Positions 52,167 through 58,665 of a DNA stretch of 64,000 nucleotides are shown here, piece by piece (the stretch's first letter is position 1; the number at the start of each line of letters is the position of its first letter). The stretch is from Planctomycetales bacterium (GTDB lineage: Bacteria; Planctomycetota; Planctomycetia; Isosphaerales; Isosphaeraceae): positions 1 through 64,000 of the forward strand of contig DAIDKV010000141.1 of the NCBI GenBank assembly GCA_027449865.1. The letters are read 5' to 3'. A program made the position numbers and the translations under genes. The notes below the pieces were generated by a model that was given only the letters and a program-made list of their open reading frames with translations, was not told where the DNA came from and did no database searches.

Positions 52167-53240
52167 ATGTTTGTTGACCGCGTGACCATCTTCGTGAGCG
52201 GCGGGGCCGGCGGCGACGGCTGCATGAGCTTCCGTCGCGAGAAGTACGCGCCGAGAGGCGGCCCGAACGGCGGCGACGGTGGTCGCGGCGGTCACGTGAC
52301 GATCCGGGCCGTCGAGGGGCTCACCAACCTCGCGCATCTCTCGCACCAGCGGCACTGGCGTGCCAGCCGAGGCGAGCATGGGCAGGGCTCCGATTGCTTC
52401 GGCCGGGGTGCCGACGACCTGATCATCGAGGTTCCACCCGGAACGATCGTCCGCGATCGGGACCGCGAATTCGTCCTGAAGGATCTGCGCGAAGCGGGCG
52501 ACTGGGTCGTGGTCGCGCGTGGCGGACGGGGCGGGCATGGCAACGCGCATTTCAAGTCGTCGACCAACCGGGCGCCCCGGCAACACGAGAAGGGGCTGCC
52601 GGGCGAGGATCGTTGGATCACGCTGGAACTCAAGGTGATCGCCGATGTCGGGCTGATTGGGCTGCCGAACGCCGGAAAGTCGACGCTCCTTTCGCGGATC
52701 TCCCGGGCGCATCCCGAGATCGCCGATTACCCGTTCACGACGAAGTATCCGAACCTCGGGACTGTGCTGGCCGAGGACATGAATTTTGTCGTCGCGGATA
52801 TCCCCGGACTGATCGAGGGAGCGCACGCCGGCCACGGACTCGGGCACGAGTTCCTCCGGCACGTCGAACGGACGCATCTGCTTGTGCATCTGGTGGAGGC
52901 TGTCCCGATCGACGGCTCCGATCCTCTCCAGAACTATCGGACCATCCGAAACGAGCTGGCGCAGTACAGCCCGAAGCTCGCCGATCGGCCCGAACTGCTG
53001 GTCGCGACCAAGATGGACGTCACCGGCGCGGAGGAGGCTCGCCAGCGGATGGAGGCGGAGCTGGGTCGCGAGGTTCCCGGAATCTCCGCGGTCACTGGCC
53101 GCGGCATTCCGCCCTTGCTCCACCGGATTGTCGGAGCGCTGGTCGAGCTGCGAAAGACGGCCGAGCCCGAGGCTCCCGCGACGGGTGAAACATCGGCAAT
53201 TCCTTCCGTGGCCGAGGCTGTCACGAGCGCGCCGGCATGA
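52167..53240 (+). CDS. obgE: GTPase ObgE/CgtA
   Basis: The protein is 357 aa. It binds the 50S subunit and links ribosome assembly to stress signalling. The Gly-rich Obg domain is at the N-terminus (RVTIFVSGGAGGDGCMSFRR, then GGPNGGDGGRGGHV). The GTPase motifs are GLPNAGKST (G1), DYPFTTKYPNLG (switch I), VADIPGLIEGAHAGHGLGHE (G3) and TKMD (G4). It overlaps coaX by four bases (ATGA, 53237-53240), so the two are translationally coupled. Confidence 0.96.
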   Translation: MFVDRVTIFVSGGAGGDGCMSFRREKYAPRGGPNGGDGGRGGHVTIRAVEGLTNLAHLSHQRHWRASRGEHGQGSDCFGRGADDLIIEVPPGTIVRDRDREFVLKDLREAGDWVVVARGGRGGHGNAHFKSSTNRAPRQHEKGLPGEDRWITLELKVIADVGLIGLPNAGKSTLLSRISRAHPEIADYPFTTKYPNLGTVLAEDMNFVVADIPGLIEGAHAGHGLGHEFLRHVERTHLLVHLVEAVPIDGSDPLQNYRTIRNELAQYSPKLADRPELLVATKMDVTGAEEARQRMEAELGREVPGISAVTGRGIPPLLHRIVGALVELRKTAEPEAPATGETSAIPSVAEAVTSAPA

Positions 53241-54004
53241 TCCGAGTCGTCGCCGACCTGGGTAATACCCGGCTGAAGTGGGGAAGGCTCGACGCCTCGG
53301 GACGGATTGCCGAGTCGATCGCCATGCCGCTGGACGACCCTTCCGCGTGGGGCGAAGCCTGGGCGGGATGGAAGCACGACTCGGGAGGCGGCGAGGCCTG
53401 CTGGGCCGTTTCGACGGTCAACCCGCCGGTCGCCGATCGGCTGGAGAAGTTCCTGGCCGATCAAAGGATTGGGCGGGTTACCTGGATTCGGTCGGCGGCC
53501 GAGGTTCCGGTGCCGAAGGACGTCGAGGGAGCCGAGTCAGGAGGGTCGGACCGGGCGCTCGCGGTCCTTGGGGCGACCCGGATTGTCCCCCGAGGTCGGC
53601 CCGGGCTGGTCGTGATGTGCGGCACGGCGATCACCGTGGAGCGGATCACGACGGAAGGGGTCTGGCAGGGCGGCGCGATCGCGCCGGGGCTCGGTCAAAC
53701 GGCCCGTGCCCTCAATCTGATGACGGCTCAGCTACCCTTCATCGAACTGAGCCGGACGCCGCCGGCCTGGGGCCGTGGCACCGTCGATTCGCTGAAAGCG
53801 GGGATATTCTGGGGGATCGTCGGGGCCGTTCGCGAGCTACTCGCCCGGCAGGAATCGGACCTTGGTGCGGATCCGGTCGTGGTCTGGACCGGCGGCGACG
53901 CGGTTTTGCTGGCGCCTCCCATCTTCGGCGACCAGGCGCGGATCGAGCCCGATCTGATCCTCGACGCACTGGCGGGCGTTGCGTTCGGCCGGACTGGCGA
54001 TTGA
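53237..54004 (+). CDS. coaX: Type III pantothenate kinase
   Basis: The protein is 255 aa, usual length. It phosphorylates pantothenate in the first step of CoA synthesis and, unlike CoaA, is not feedback-inhibited. The ASKHA-type motifs are VVADLGNTRLKWG (phosphate 1), MCGTAITVERI (where most family members have D after the T-x segment) and the acidic-Gly segment GGAIAPGLGQTARALNLMTA. VVWTGGDAVLL is the adenosine motif. Translationally coupled to obgE; tolC follows after a gap of 143 bases. Confidence 0.92.
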   Translation: MIRVVADLGNTRLKWGRLDASGRIAESIAMPLDDPSAWGEAWAGWKHDSGGGEACWAVSTVNPPVADRLEKFLADQRIGRVTWIRSAAEVPVPKDVEGAESGGSDRALAVLGATRIVPRGRPGLVVMCGTAITVERITTEGVWQGGAIAPGLGQTARALNLMTAQLPFIELSRTPPAWGRGTVDSLKAGIFWGIVGAVRELLARQESDLGADPVVVWTGGDAVLLAPPIFGDQARIEPDLILDALAGVAFGRTGD

Positions 54005-54147: not shown

Positions 54148-55755
54148 ATGGGCCATCGCATGGCGTACCGGTGCCGCTTGCCGGTTGCGCGGATACTGCT
54201 CACCTCGGCCGCGGCGCTGCTGTTGATGGCCCCATGCCGGGCGATCGCGCAGGGGCCGCAGTTCGACGTTGGCGCGCCGCCCGGCGCGGCGGCCGGTGGA
54301 AGCACAATCGGTGTTCCACTCGGCGCCGCGGATTTCCCCGGGATGCAGGGGGCATCGATTGCGCCGTTCAGTGGCCGGCCGGGTCCGGCGGGAAGCCACG
54401 TCCCGGCCGCGGCACTCTCGATTCCCAGGGCGCCGGTTTTCCGGACGAACGTCAAGGGCAGTCCGTTCGCCGTCCAGCCCATCCAGGAGCAGGACATCCC
54501 CGCCTATGGCGACCTCGACCTCCCCGAAAACTACGAGGGCCCGACCGGCGGGCTGACCATCGACCAGGCCATCGACCTGCTGATGAAGCAGAACCTCGAT
54601 CTGATCGCATACCGGATGGAAATTCCGATGGCCGAGGCCGATATCCTCACGGCGAGCCTTCGGAATAACCCCATCTTCTACGCCGATTATCAGCTCCTCC
54701 CCTACGGCCACTACTCGTTCCTTCGCCCTGGAGGTCCGCAACAGAGCGACGTGAACATCAACTATCCCCTCGATATTACAGGGAAACGTCGAGCCCATAC
54801 CCTTCAGTATCGGATGGCGAAGCGTGTGACCGAGGCCCAGCTTCAGGACGCCGTTCGCAACCTGATCGACAACCTGTACACGGTCTACGTTGACGCGGTC
54901 GCCGCGGCGCTCACGGTGAAGTTCAGCGAGACGTATGCCAGCGGCATTCGTCGGCTGGAGGAGCGGATGGGCCAGTTGTACCGGGGGGGGCAGGTCAAGG
55001 AGTCTGACCTTCTGGCGGTCCGGGCCAAGCGTGAGCAGGCCGAGCTTCAGGTGCGCGAGGCGCTTCAGGCGAAGTACAAGGCGAACCGGGCGGTGATCCT
55101 GATGCTCAACCTCTCCTTCGACGACGCCGAAACGTTCGAGGTTCGCGACCCGATCGGCAAGCTCCGTCCTGCTCCAATGAAGCGTGAGGAGTTAATTCGA
55201 GCGGCGCTCGAGATCCGGCCCGACCTCCACGCGATCAAGATGGGGATCAAAAGATCCGAGGCCGATATCCGCGCCGCGAAGGCCGATGCCTATCCCGACG
55301 TTTTCGTTCTCTATCAACCTTACACCTTTCAGAACAACACCTATCTCGGCGTTCAGAGTGCCTATTCGTGGACGCTGGGGCTCACGGCGACGGTTCCGCT
55401 CTACAACCGCAATCAGGGCAACATCACGCGGGCGAAGATCAACCGAGACCAGACGGCCGTGCAGGCGGCGAGCACCGAGCGGCAGGTGGTTAGCGACGTT
55501 CTCGACGCCGAGCAGGAGCTTCGCCAGAGCCTCATGAGTGTTCGGGAGTTTCAGAACGAGATCATCCCGGCCAACCGAAAGATGCGCGACTCCGCTTACA
55601 AACTCTACCGCGCCGGGGAGTCGAGTATTCTTGATTTCCTCGAGGCGCAACTCTCGTACAACGAGGCCGTCAAGCAGTACCGGGACGCGCTGGTTCGGCA
55701 TCGTCGAGCGATACTGGACCTCAACACCGCCGTCGGGGAACGGATTCTGCCATGA
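54148..55755 (+). CDS. TolC-family outer membrane channel protein
   Basis: The protein is 535 aa. AGGAGGT lies 8 nt before ATG 54148. The signal peptide is LPVARILLTSAAALLLMAPC, then a Gly/Pro/Ala linker of about 80 residues. The TolC fold follows: LTIDQAIDLLMKQNLDLIAY opens repeat 1, RPDLHAIKMGIKRSEADIRA opens repeat 2, and the coiled-coil helices are long (RRLEERMGQLYRGGQVKESD). The family's late motif is YRAGESSILDFLEAQLSYNE. It forms trimeric outer-membrane channels in type I and RND export; no inner-membrane pump or adaptor gene is in the window. Overlaps the next gene by ATGA. Confidence 0.93.
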   Translation: MGHRMAYRCRLPVARILLTSAAALLLMAPCRAIAQGPQFDVGAPPGAAAGGSTIGVPLGAADFPGMQGASIAPFSGRPGPAGSHVPAAALSIPRAPVFRTNVKGSPFAVQPIQEQDIPAYGDLDLPENYEGPTGGLTIDQAIDLLMKQNLDLIAYRMEIPMAEADILTASLRNNPIFYADYQLLPYGHYSFLRPGGPQQSDVNINYPLDITGKRRAHTLQYRMAKRVTEAQLQDAVRNLIDNLYTVYVDAVAAALTVKFSETYASGIRRLEERMGQLYRGGQVKESDLLAVRAKREQAELQVREALQAKYKANRAVILMLNLSFDDAETFEVRDPIGKLRPAPMKREELIRAALEIRPDLHAIKMGIKRSEADIRAAKADAYPDVFVLYQPYTFQNNTYLGVQSAYSWTLGLTATVPLYNRNQGNITRAKINRDQTAVQAASTERQVVSDVLDAEQELRQSLMSVREFQNEIIPANRKMRDSAYKLYRAGESSILDFLEAQLSYNEAVKQYRDALVRHRRAILDLNTAVGERILP

Positions 55756-56618
55756 ACCGACGATCGCAAGTTCGGTCCCGCCGACCGACGCTCGAAGGGC
55801 TCGAGCCCCGCGCAATGCTGTCGACTCTGCATGTGGGCGGCGGGTCGTCGGGGAATCCGGGCTGGGTCAAGCCGGCCATTTTGCAGCAGGTCGCGGCCTC
55901 GCTTTACGCGCCGATCACCACGACGACCACCACAGCGGTCGGCAATCAGACGTTCCCGGCCGGAACGTACGCGGTCCCGCAGCCGACGAAGGCCGAGCTT
56001 CACCGGGAAACCTTCTGGATGGAGTTTGTCGGCCATTATTACGTGGGCCCTCCTCGGTTCTCCAACCAATCGGCGACGATCCATATTTACAGTAACGGAC
56101 GCAACGTGACCTCGAATCAGACGTCGCACGCGAGGGCACAGCTCATCCTGTTTCCGCCGGCCGATCCCTCGGCCTCGCCGACAACCAACGACCCGATGGC
56201 CGGGCAGGTCGCGGGGCTCTTGAGCCTCTTTCCGGCCGACGCGCTGCAATCGGGGAGTTCGCTGTTCGCCGAGATGACCAACCTTCCGGGCGTTGCCAGC
56301 AACGCGCCTGGGACGCTGGATCACGGCCTCCCGTCGCACCTCCAGTTCATGCTCGACACAGGCGGCGTCACCGGGGGGGTCTATTCGGTCCCGCTCTACA
56401 CGCTCGTCACGCCCTCGGGCCTTTCGTCGCCGATCGTGGGCGGCAATGGCGGAGCCGTCTCGAACAATGTGGGCGGGGGTGTGGTGGACCTCAAGTACAT
56501 CCCGACCGGCATCCCTCATGCGTCCGGCGCCCGGCAGTCCGGGACGGTGCTCGTGCGGGTGCAGGGGCTCATCAATACCACCGGCGTGACCAACCCGCTC
56601 TACAAGAGCATCAACTAA
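55752..56618 (+). CDS. LEPR-XLL-type surface protein, paralog 1 of 3
   Basis: The protein is 288 aa; its ATG shares bases with the tolC stop (55752-55755), so it is coupled to it. The N-terminus is Arg-rich, then LEGLEPRAMLSTLHVGG, the best match in the window to the planctomycete LEP-R-x-LL export motif. The domain that follows has landmarks LHRETFWMEFVGHYYVGPPR, SATIHIYSNG, DPSASP, GLPSHLQFMLD, GGGVVDLKYIP and GTVLVRVQGLINTTG. These recur in the next two genes. It looks all-beta. Function unknown; predicted surface-located. Confidence 0.88.
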   Translation: MNRRSQVRSRRPTLEGLEPRAMLSTLHVGGGSSGNPGWVKPAILQQVAASLYAPITTTTTTAVGNQTFPAGTYAVPQPTKAELHRETFWMEFVGHYYVGPPRFSNQSATIHIYSNGRNVTSNQTSHARAQLILFPPADPSASPTTNDPMAGQVAGLLSLFPADALQSGSSLFAEMTNLPGVASNAPGTLDHGLPSHLQFMLDTGGVTGGVYSVPLYTLVTPSGLSSPIVGGNGGAVSNNVGGGVVDLKYIPTGIPHASGARQSGTVLVRVQGLINTTGVTNPLYKSIN

Positions 56619-56633
56619 GGGAGGAGGGTCCCG

Positions 56634-57470
56634 ATGCGCAGGCGATCGCACTCGACCGGGCCCAGCCGGCTCCGACTCCAGCCCGGTCTAGAGGGTTTGG
56701 AGACCCGGGAATTGCTGTCGGCGTCCTCGCCGGCGACGATCGGGGCGGCGCCACGTCCCTTCCCGACTCGCCCATCGGCGATCGTCGCGCACCCCGATTC
56801 GCCGAACGGACTGCTCGGCAAGCGAGCGCCCGGGTCGTTCCTCGACCCCGCCCTGCTCCAGCAGGTAGCCGCCGCCATCTACAATCCGAGCACTCCGCCC
56901 GGCACCCCGACCCCACAGGAAATCCGTCGCGAGACCTTCACGGCGCGGTGGGTGGGCAAATACACGATCGGCCCGCCCCGGTTCTCCGATCGGGCCAGTA
57001 CCATCCACCTGTATGGCGTCACAGGCGGCTCGAATCAGTTCTACAAGGGGAAGTTCAACATCGCGATCTACCCGCCGTCGGACCCCTCGGCGACACCGAC
57101 ACCCGGAAATCTCTTTGCCAACCAGATCACGGGTACGGCCGCGCTTTTCGGTCAGAATTATCTCCAGTCGGGAAGCATGACGGTGCTCGACCTGCACGGG
57201 ACGCCAGCTCCGGGGTCGTCGCCCAACGCCCTGCCAACCCGCCTGACCTGGGCCTACGACGCGAACACCAGCGCCGGCCCGTACGCGGCGCCTGGTGGTG
57301 TCGTGCCGGGCAGCGGGTTCACGCAGGGGGCGGGCGTGGTCGATCTCCATTACCTCCCCGACACGCATCCTCTTCCCGGAACCAATGGATCGGGCCGGGT
57401 CGTGGTGACCTTCCAGGGGCTAATCAACTCCAGCGGGATCGTGAGCCCGGTCTCGAAGTTCATCATGTAA
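56634..57470 (+). CDS. LEPR-XLL-type surface protein, paralog 2 of 3
   Basis: The protein is 278 aa; GGGAGGAGGG lies just before ATG 56634, 15 bases after paralog 1. The N-terminal motif is LEGLETRELLSASSPATIG. The shared domain has IRRETFTARWVGKYTIGPPR, STIHLYGVTGGSNQFYKGKF, DPSATPTPGN, ALPTRLTWAYD, AGVVDLHYLPDTHPLPG and GRVVVTFQGLINSSG. It carries LLQQVAAAIYNPS, also present as ILQQVAASLYAP in paralog 1. No catalytic residues stand out. Confidence 0.88.
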   Translation: MRRRSHSTGPSRLRLQPGLEGLETRELLSASSPATIGAAPRPFPTRPSAIVAHPDSPNGLLGKRAPGSFLDPALLQQVAAAIYNPSTPPGTPTPQEIRRETFTARWVGKYTIGPPRFSDRASTIHLYGVTGGSNQFYKGKFNIAIYPPSDPSATPTPGNLFANQITGTAALFGQNYLQSGSMTVLDLHGTPAPGSSPNALPTRLTWAYDANTSAGPYAAPGGVVPGSGFTQGAGVVDLHYLPDTHPLPGTNGSGRVVVTFQGLINSSGIVSPVSKFIM

Positions 57471-57492
57471 GCGAAGGTCCGGAGGGAGTCCG

Positions 57493-58293
57493 ATGGAACG
57501 AATCGCCCCGGGCCGTCGTGGCGGCCATTTTCGACGTCCGACAATCGAGCCGCTCGAGGTGCGTACCCTGCTGACGTCGCACCCGCTTGGACCGACACTC
57601 CCGGGACACCACTATCCGACACCCGACGTGAAACAGTTCGTCCCGATCCTCTATCCGCCCGGGACGCCACAGCCGACCGCCGCGGAGATCCAGCGCGAGT
57701 CGTTCGACTTCCGGGGGATCGGTCATTACACCGTCGGACCCGGCGGATTCAGCCAGCAATCCGTCAAGATCCACGGATATGGCAAGGCGGGTGGGAGCAA
57801 TCTGTCGCACCGGACCTATTTTCAATTCGCCGTGATCGAGCCCTCAGCCTCGGCGCCGAGCCCGGTCATCTACGGCAACATGAGCCTGGTGGGAGCGAAC
57901 TATCTCCAGAACAGTTCGTTGCTGATCGTGGATTTTGTCGGGCCGCCGGGGAGTGAGGTCCACGGACTGCCGACTCATCTCTACTGGATCTCGGACGCGA
58001 ATCAATCGAGTTCCGGTCCGTTCGCCGAGACCGGAACGGCCTTCCCCGGCCGGAGCAACTTCCCCGCGAACTACTTCAATGCCCAGGGCCTGCCCGTGAG
58101 TCCGCTTAGCCAGGGACTCCCTCCGGCGAGTGTCAATTACTGGGGCCTCTCGCTTGGCTCGGTTGACTTCAAGTACGTCCCCGATGCCCATCCTGTCAAG
58201 GGAAGCCTCGGATCGGGAACGGTGATCGTGACGATGCACGGCCTGATGAACAACTCAGGAGCCCAGAGCCAGATCGACAAGAATCTCAACTAA
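57493..58293 (+). CDS. LEPR-XLL-type surface protein, paralog 3 of 3
   Basis: The protein is 266 aa; GGAGGGAG lies upstream of ATG 57493, 22 bases after paralog 2. The N-terminal motif is IEPLEVRTLLTSHPLGP. The shared domain has IQRESFDFRGIGHYTVGPGG, SVKIHGYGKAGGSNLSHRTY, EPSASAPSP, GLPTHLYWISDANQSSSGPF, GSVDFKYVPDAHPVKG and GTVIVTMHGLMNNSG. It lacks the LQQVA segment and carries a 25-residue insert before VDFKY. A decayed transposase lies right after it. Confidence 0.88.
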   Translation: MERIAPGRRGGHFRRPTIEPLEVRTLLTSHPLGPTLPGHHYPTPDVKQFVPILYPPGTPQPTAAEIQRESFDFRGIGHYTVGPGGFSQQSVKIHGYGKAGGSNLSHRTYFQFAVIEPSASAPSPVIYGNMSLVGANYLQNSSLLIVDFVGPPGSEVHGLPTHLYWISDANQSSSGPFAETGTAFPGRSNFPANYFNAQGLPVSPLSQGLPPASVNYWGLSLGSVDFKYVPDAHPVKGSLGSGTVIVTMHGLMNNSGAQSQIDKNLN

Positions 58294-58329
58294 AGTTTCC
58301 ATCCGGCGGGAGAACGATGGAGAAAGCTC

Positions 58330-58665
58330 CTGAGCCCCCTCCAGCCGCTCATCGATTTGCTCGATGACGGCCCGATGCAGCGACTTGTGGTTCCCTCTCA
58401 GCGGCAGCAGGTCGTCGGCCTTGCCGCGGATGATCTCCTCGGCGATCGCCTTCTGCACCCGCCCTCGCGTCGATCTTACGATCCCGCCTCGGACGTCGAT
58501 CTTCTTGAGCCGTTCGGGGATCGCGGTGATCTCGATGGAACTGGCGTCGATGGCCCCTGGTCCAAACTCAGGCGATTCTCCACCGCTCAGAGGCTGACGA
58601 CATGCGGGGCGGAGCGGCCGACGGAACGTCACGATGGGCCTTGCCGTCGATGGCGATCCGTACCA
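58330..58665 (-). pseudogene. Decayed ISAs1-family transposase fragment
   Basis: Read on the minus strand, several frames give successive ISAs1-family landmarks: VRIAIDGKAHRDV (about 58660-58611), then PHVVSL, a TGA stop at 58589-58587 where the family has Trp, then AVENRLSLDQ. In a third frame come IEITAIPERLKKIDVRGGIV (about 58535), QKAIAEEIIRGKADDLLPLR and GNHKSLHRAVIEQIDERLEG. The family's catalytic Asp in TIDAMG is replaced (RSTRG). At least two frameshifts, a nonsense codon and truncation at both ends make it inactive. No terminal inverted repeats are visible. Confidence 0.75.

Follow-up and report, generated by a model that had tools for sequence, protein, structure and literature searches.

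A TolC/CusC-type outer-membrane channel genetically linked to a family of predicted barrel proteins in Isosphaeraceae

The stretch of DNA analysed here (64,000 nucleotides, referred to below as the window) lies on contig C141 of an Isosphaeraceae genome of 8.48 Mb that is 99% complete. It carries a gene for a TolC-like protein followed at once by three tandem genes for proteins that resemble one another, and the question it raises is what these three proteins are and what they do beside a channel. The first-pass annotation had read the group as a candidate new secretion or surface system, in which the channel exports, anchors or is assembled with its neighbours. We refer to the channel as OMF, for outer-membrane factor, and use FAM as our label for the paralog family.

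The locus and its channel

The OMF gene (54148–55755, forward strand) encodes a protein of 535 residues, assigned to the TolC/CusC/CzcC type from its match to Pfam OEP, a PDB profile match and comparison of N-termini. On the same strand follow FAM paralogs A (55752–56618, 288 residues), B (56634–57470, 278 residues) and C (57493–58293, 266 residues), which share one architecture, an LEPR-XLL leader followed by a predicted barrel of the allene oxide cyclase (AOC) type. The OMF stop codon and the start codon of A overlap as ATGA at 55752, with A and B 15 bases apart and B and C 22 bases apart. The first-pass annotation had described this arrangement correctly in all its coordinates. Its further claim of strong ribosome sites applies to two paralogs out of three, because A has no strong Shine–Dalgarno-like site upstream; such sequences are present 5′ of B (GGAGGAGG) and 5′ of C (GGAGGG), and the translation start of A relies instead on the ATGA overlap with the OMF gene. 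Comparison with sister species gave dN/dS values of 0.065 for OMF, 0.22 for A, 0.21/0.13 for B and 0.055 for C, and purifying selection acts on each of the four genes.

Upstream of the OMF gene lies a type III pantothenate kinase-like gene (CoaX, 53237–54004, forward strand; the product name was read from the sequence). In the window genus, the OMF–FAM set follows Obg and CoaX, with pump genes absent alongside. Since CoaX adjoins OMF in this genus only, we regard it as context that lies outside the module. Just behind the FAM array is a minus-strand open reading frame (58255–58632), which we take to resemble a fragment of an ISAs1-type transposase.

The window OMF matches Pfam OEP (PF02321) in two stretches with E=2.8e-42 and 145.1 bits against a cut-off of 22, and its best PDB profile match is CusC (6e-11, about 45 bits), with SilC also among the closest. 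The two OEP repeats are common to CusC, CzcC and TolC, and subfamily relatives of the window OMF stand in RND operons of the CusA/CzcA type. We conclude that the OMF belongs to the TolC/CusC superfamily and is thus a channel of a known kind. It differs from CusC, CzcC and TolC taken together in being non-lipidated, in carrying a long Gly/Pro-rich extension and in having no pump or adaptor gene adjacent to it; the RND and adaptor genes that define a CusCBA/CzcCBA exporter are absent beside it. A type I signal peptide is predicted for the window OMF, with an AIA-Q site and no lipobox. When the N-termini of 81 OMFs of the subfamily were compared by eye, a Sec-type signal was seen as a hydrophobic stretch followed by an AxA-Q site, and a lipobox was absent from all of them, with or without FAM, as it is from Escherichia coli TolC. 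The idea that FAM substitutes for lipidation of the OMF was considered and rejected; FAM is not a simple replacement for a missing lipid, because FAM-less OMFs likewise have no lipobox.

The Gly/Pro-rich extension spans some 90 N-terminal residues (about 36–130; 54253–54540 in the window), is conserved across the OMF subfamily and falls outside the part aligned to CusC. Little sequence difference separates FAM-linked from FAM-less OMFs: a loose filter leaves five of 535 positions. D40 and P44, in the N-terminal tail of the mature protein, stand out most clearly and are commoner in FAM-linked OMFs. The five positions give a weak signal for FAM-specific positions in the OMF sequence.

The FAM family and its predicted fold

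A profile hidden Markov model seeded with A, B and C recovered 67 members, all with E≤3.5e-20, in 40 regions of relatives. The three proteins thus have one domain in common at a level far beyond chance, as the first-pass annotation had proposed, and its view that this domain belongs to no named family is upheld by searches of Pfam and NCBIfam, in which A, B and C gave no domain match. The sole trace was a sub-threshold match of the leader of B to Planc_extracel (PF07595; 11.2 bits, below the cut-off of 25.5).

The leaders read LEGLEPRAMLS in A, LEGLETRELLS in B and IEPLEVRTLLT in C. The LEP-x-R-x-LL-type motif noted for these three extends to every full-length relative; each has a short basic stretch at its start, followed by an L-E-x-R-x-L-L core. 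In position, basic stretch and core, these leaders agree with the LEPR-XLL/Planc_extracel leader; they score below the Pfam cut-off, as does every match in the window genome, no protein of which passes it. A leader of the form RRLxxExLExRxLLA was first reported in Rhodopirellula and was used in a proteome study of Tuwongella (PMC8567305). It is general to surface proteins of planctomycetes without FAM, and a surface location is presumed for LEPR-XLL proteins; in Tuwongella, some of those detected fractionate only with SDS (PMC8567305). The FAMs begin with the export leader and lack a classical signal peptide, and the leaders of A, B and C have no lipobox cysteine.

By their named records, the FAM hosts are Isosphaeraceae (Singulisphaera, Aquisphaera, Paludisphaera and others). 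A search of the phylum (294 genomes) gave a strong FAM match in none but the window's own genome, and a search of the class gave matches above 30 bits in Isosphaeraceae only; both searches scored eight to nine candidates per genome, so that some members may have been missed. Candidates from outside Isosphaeraceae were set aside, since they matched in the leader alone or, in family f3, were an unrelated repeat protein that shares the leader. In another planctomycete family, we observed an LEPR-leader repeat protein of about 390–420 residues, probably a β-propeller, at two loci (L171 in genome G351 and L172 in G481); these proteins resemble FAM through the leader region only. Neither the FAM family, its fold assignment nor its pairing with OMF is described in the open-access literature searched.

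Structure prediction, which the first-pass annotation had proposed for the shared domain, points to an eight-stranded barrel of the AOC/dirigent type. AlphaFold2 models of window paralog B (pLDDT 76, core above 90) and of a homologue at locus L119 (pLDDT 81) have the same eight long strands following a disordered leader region. Foldseek returned no match to the models at E≤0.001, and a profile search of PDB sequences with FAM gave a best E of 1.4, to an unrelated chain. A second look by structural alignment gave PloI4 (Z 10.8, rmsd 3.1, 125 residues), the dirigent protein DRR206 (Z 10.0) and pyocyanin demethylase (Z 9.9), and the top 29 rows all belong to the AOC/dirigent/PloI4 group or to barrels of the DUF3237/DUF3224 type; the best Z for the model of window paralog B is 8.8. 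Transmembrane barrels score lower (NspA, Z 8.2), and a transmembrane β-barrel is the less favoured model. We regard the eight-stranded antiparallel barrel of the AOC/dirigent type as a good prediction, not as proof of kinship: FAM has the predicted barrel in common with AOC, dirigent proteins and PloI4 but has no detectable sequence similarity to them, and it differs from them in leader, in genomic context and probably in function.

In the FAM tree, A, B and C form three separate, well-supported orthologous groups of seven, eight and eight members, with one copy of each per locus in several genera; where a copy is lacking from this count, it lies at a contig end. The genera are younger than the triplication, and none of the three copies has been lost. 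At L048/L049 FAM was triplicated a second time, independently, and the gene order at L045 is B-C-A.

Linkage of FAM to the outer-membrane factor

The loci of relatives were gathered with an OMF alignment, which served as a reciprocal test too. Across 45 Isosphaeraceae genomes, we found 158 OMFs of the subfamily (E≤1e-40); the FAM matches number 92 and form 63 arrays. Forty-two of these arrays lie directly downstream of a same-strand OMF, most at gaps of 0–140 bp, where simple arithmetic on 158 OMFs and 45 genomes of about 7.2 Mb leads one to expect about 0.02 by chance. The profile search suggested in the first-pass annotation thus bears out the conserved pairing that it had read from a single locus. 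Among the remaining arrays, one is divergent from an OMF, three begin at the edge of a contig and 17 lack an adjoining OMF of the subfamily. The 17 include a FAM on contig C15 of the window genome that is divergent from a remote OMF (OEP, 8e-23), one that faces a partial OMF (G031:C373), one that comes after a CusA/CzcA-like RND gene (G021:C46) and three that adjoin an iron-dependent-repressor gene (G007:C319, G024:C1 and G011:C109). Homologues scattered without TolC neighbours had been named beforehand as the finding that would speak against the pairing; most arrays are not of this kind, but about 13 of the 63 have no OMF and no RND gene alongside in the stretch read, which means that some FAMs work with no channel next to them. 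Unlinked FAMs at L059, L070 and L163, in three genera, stand directly beside genes for DtxR-type iron-dependent repressors with a FeoA domain.

The OMF profile was built from FAM-linked OMFs, which biases its score ranking, and we therefore rely on the trees and on the adjacency counts. In a tree of 81 OMFs, those linked to FAM fall into two groups, with four label changes against a mean of 22.7 for shuffled labels; none of 500 shuffles was as low as four. The FAM tree, with unlinked copies left out, accounts for membership of the two OMF clades with a single change. The two trees agree at the clade level, and we therefore conclude that the pairs have been inherited together and that the OMF–FAM linkage is real. 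At L100 (Paludisphaera soli), an OMF of a FAM-linked clade is accompanied by RND and adaptor genes with FAM absent, an apparent loss.

The pair is found in surroundings that are otherwise unrelated: behind Obg and CoaX, behind a CusA/CzcA RND gene and its adaptor, and with ArsR/SmtB and CusF–SCO1 genes. The order RND–adaptor–OMF–FAM occurs at L053, L055, L056, L066, L071, L072, L076, L089, L092, L099, L108 and L112, the RND protein of these operons being a heavy-metal transporter of the CusA/CzcA family (846.8 bits, cut-off 701) and the adaptor CzcB-like. In a further recurrent locus, the OMF adjoins an ArsR/SmtB regulator and a CusF–SCO1 protein, with FAM between them in some genomes. At the window and at most loci with three FAMs, OMF and FAM have no adjoining RND–adaptor pair; the window genome itself contains both types, the orphan set on C141 and an RND–adaptor–OMF–FAM operon on C183 (L053, G000:C183:4577-7417). 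Metal homeostasis is the recurring theme of these contexts.

A possible accessory role and its rivals

That the channel secretes the FAM proteins, the suggestion at the head of the first-pass annotation, would make the locus resemble a type I-like secretion system. Substrate and channel genes are indeed adjacent, and FAM has an export leader in place of a classical signal peptide. Against this, the pair in many relatives stands last in complete operons for RND metal efflux, where the substrates are ions, and neither an ABC exporter nor an HlyD-type adaptor was found among the genes flanking the window pair, although such a partner may lie farther away. FAM-less OMFs of the subfamily have no other LEPR-XLL protein as a neighbour, and the window genome has 44 weak LEPR-XLL-like starts, most without an adjacent OMF; with dozens of such starts elsewhere and only FAMs adjoining this OMF subfamily, the linkage is to FAM and not to the leader. 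On these grounds the OMF is ruled out as a general LEPR-XLL exporter, secretion of FAM by the channel is very improbable, and a new secretion system is not supported. We find it distinctly unlikely, too, that FAM is a structural protein of the surface or cell wall, co-regulated with the OMF for reasons of stoichiometry or stress and sharing no mechanism with it. The presumed surface location of LEPR-XLL proteins, with their partial SDS-only fractionation in Tuwongella (PMC8567305), and the FAMs unlinked to an OMF would suit such a role, but the clade-level agreement of the trees and the fact that OMF and FAM have moved together into differing contexts go beyond what co-regulation needs.

The main rival is that FAM serves the same efflux pathway as a ligand-binding protein or enzyme of the periplasm or surface, and would bind or modify a metal complex or a small hydrophobic compound before or after its passage through the channel, without touching the channel itself. 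The fold would suit this, the nearest structures (PloI4, DRR206 and pyocyanin demethylase) being ligand-binding and catalytic barrels. Unlinked FAMs lie beside DtxR-type genes (L059, L070 and L163) or a CusA/CzcA-like RND gene (L165), so the connection with metal homeostasis recurs without OMF. The linkage of FAM, however, follows OMF clades and is tighter than that to RND pumps, and beyond the leader the invariant positions are Gly and Pro, with no obvious conserved metal-ligand set. We consider this rival rather doubtful.

Our preferred reading, held tentatively and somewhat short of probable, is that FAM is an exported accessory protein of an efflux channel, probably for metals, in a relation like that of YbjP to TolC. 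Of the three relations first suggested, anchoring to or assembly with the channel is favoured. On this reading the OMF, as an efflux channel in the CusC/CzcC/TolC superfamily, would have three co-translated accessory proteins of its own. These would be exported by the planctomycete LEPR-XLL leader, would fold as small eight-stranded AOC/dirigent-type barrels, predicted to be soluble, and would most likely act at the channel, on its periplasmic or outer-surface side, where they may assist its placement, stability or gating. Heavy-metal efflux is the probable setting, as sister pairs end CusA/CzcA-type RND operons; the window copy would be an orphan channel that borrows a pump encoded elsewhere. 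FAM tracks OMF across differing pump contexts and where a pump is absent. Weighing against an accessory role, AOC/dirigent barrels are often ligand-binding or catalytic, and a role with a soluble ligand fits the fold equally well.

YbjP binds E. coli TolC with 3:3 stoichiometry, is found in some Enterobacterales only, is dispensable for efflux under standard conditions and has been proposed as an accessory protein (PMC13082787, PMC13095208). It is small, extracytoplasmic, taxonomically narrow and tied to a non-lipidated OMF, and the same is proposed for FAM. YbjP is, however, a DUF3828 lipoprotein, whereas FAM has an unrelated predicted fold, an LEPR-XLL leader and no lipid anchor, and A, B and C give no Pfam match to DUF3828. 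FAM differs further in being genetically linked to the OMF that it would bind.

An extension of the accessory reading, which we put forward as a hypothesis and think improbable, is that the barrels form a trimeric collar on a trimeric channel. Loci with a single FAM gene would make a homotrimer, and window-like loci, which keep one copy each of three ancient paralogs that would not be interchangeable, an A:B:C heterotrimer. TolC is a trimer. The collar would draw on the trimers of AOC and dirigent proteins (the latter described in PMC4340379), on the 3:3 YbjP–TolC complex and on arrays of three having arisen twice. If true, this would be an outer-membrane channel of a new, asymmetric kind that carries three distinct accessory subunits.

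Dedicated partners of TolC-type channels have come to light recently (YbjP, 2026), and FAM is an unrelated family, with another predicted fold and another leader, genetically tied to TolC-type channels in one bacterial family. If FAM binds the channel, partners of outer-membrane factors would have evolved more than once and could be found by gene linkage. The FAMs, being small and well-defined LEPR-XLL proteins whose neighbour is known, also offer a handle on the unexplained export leader of planctomycetes.
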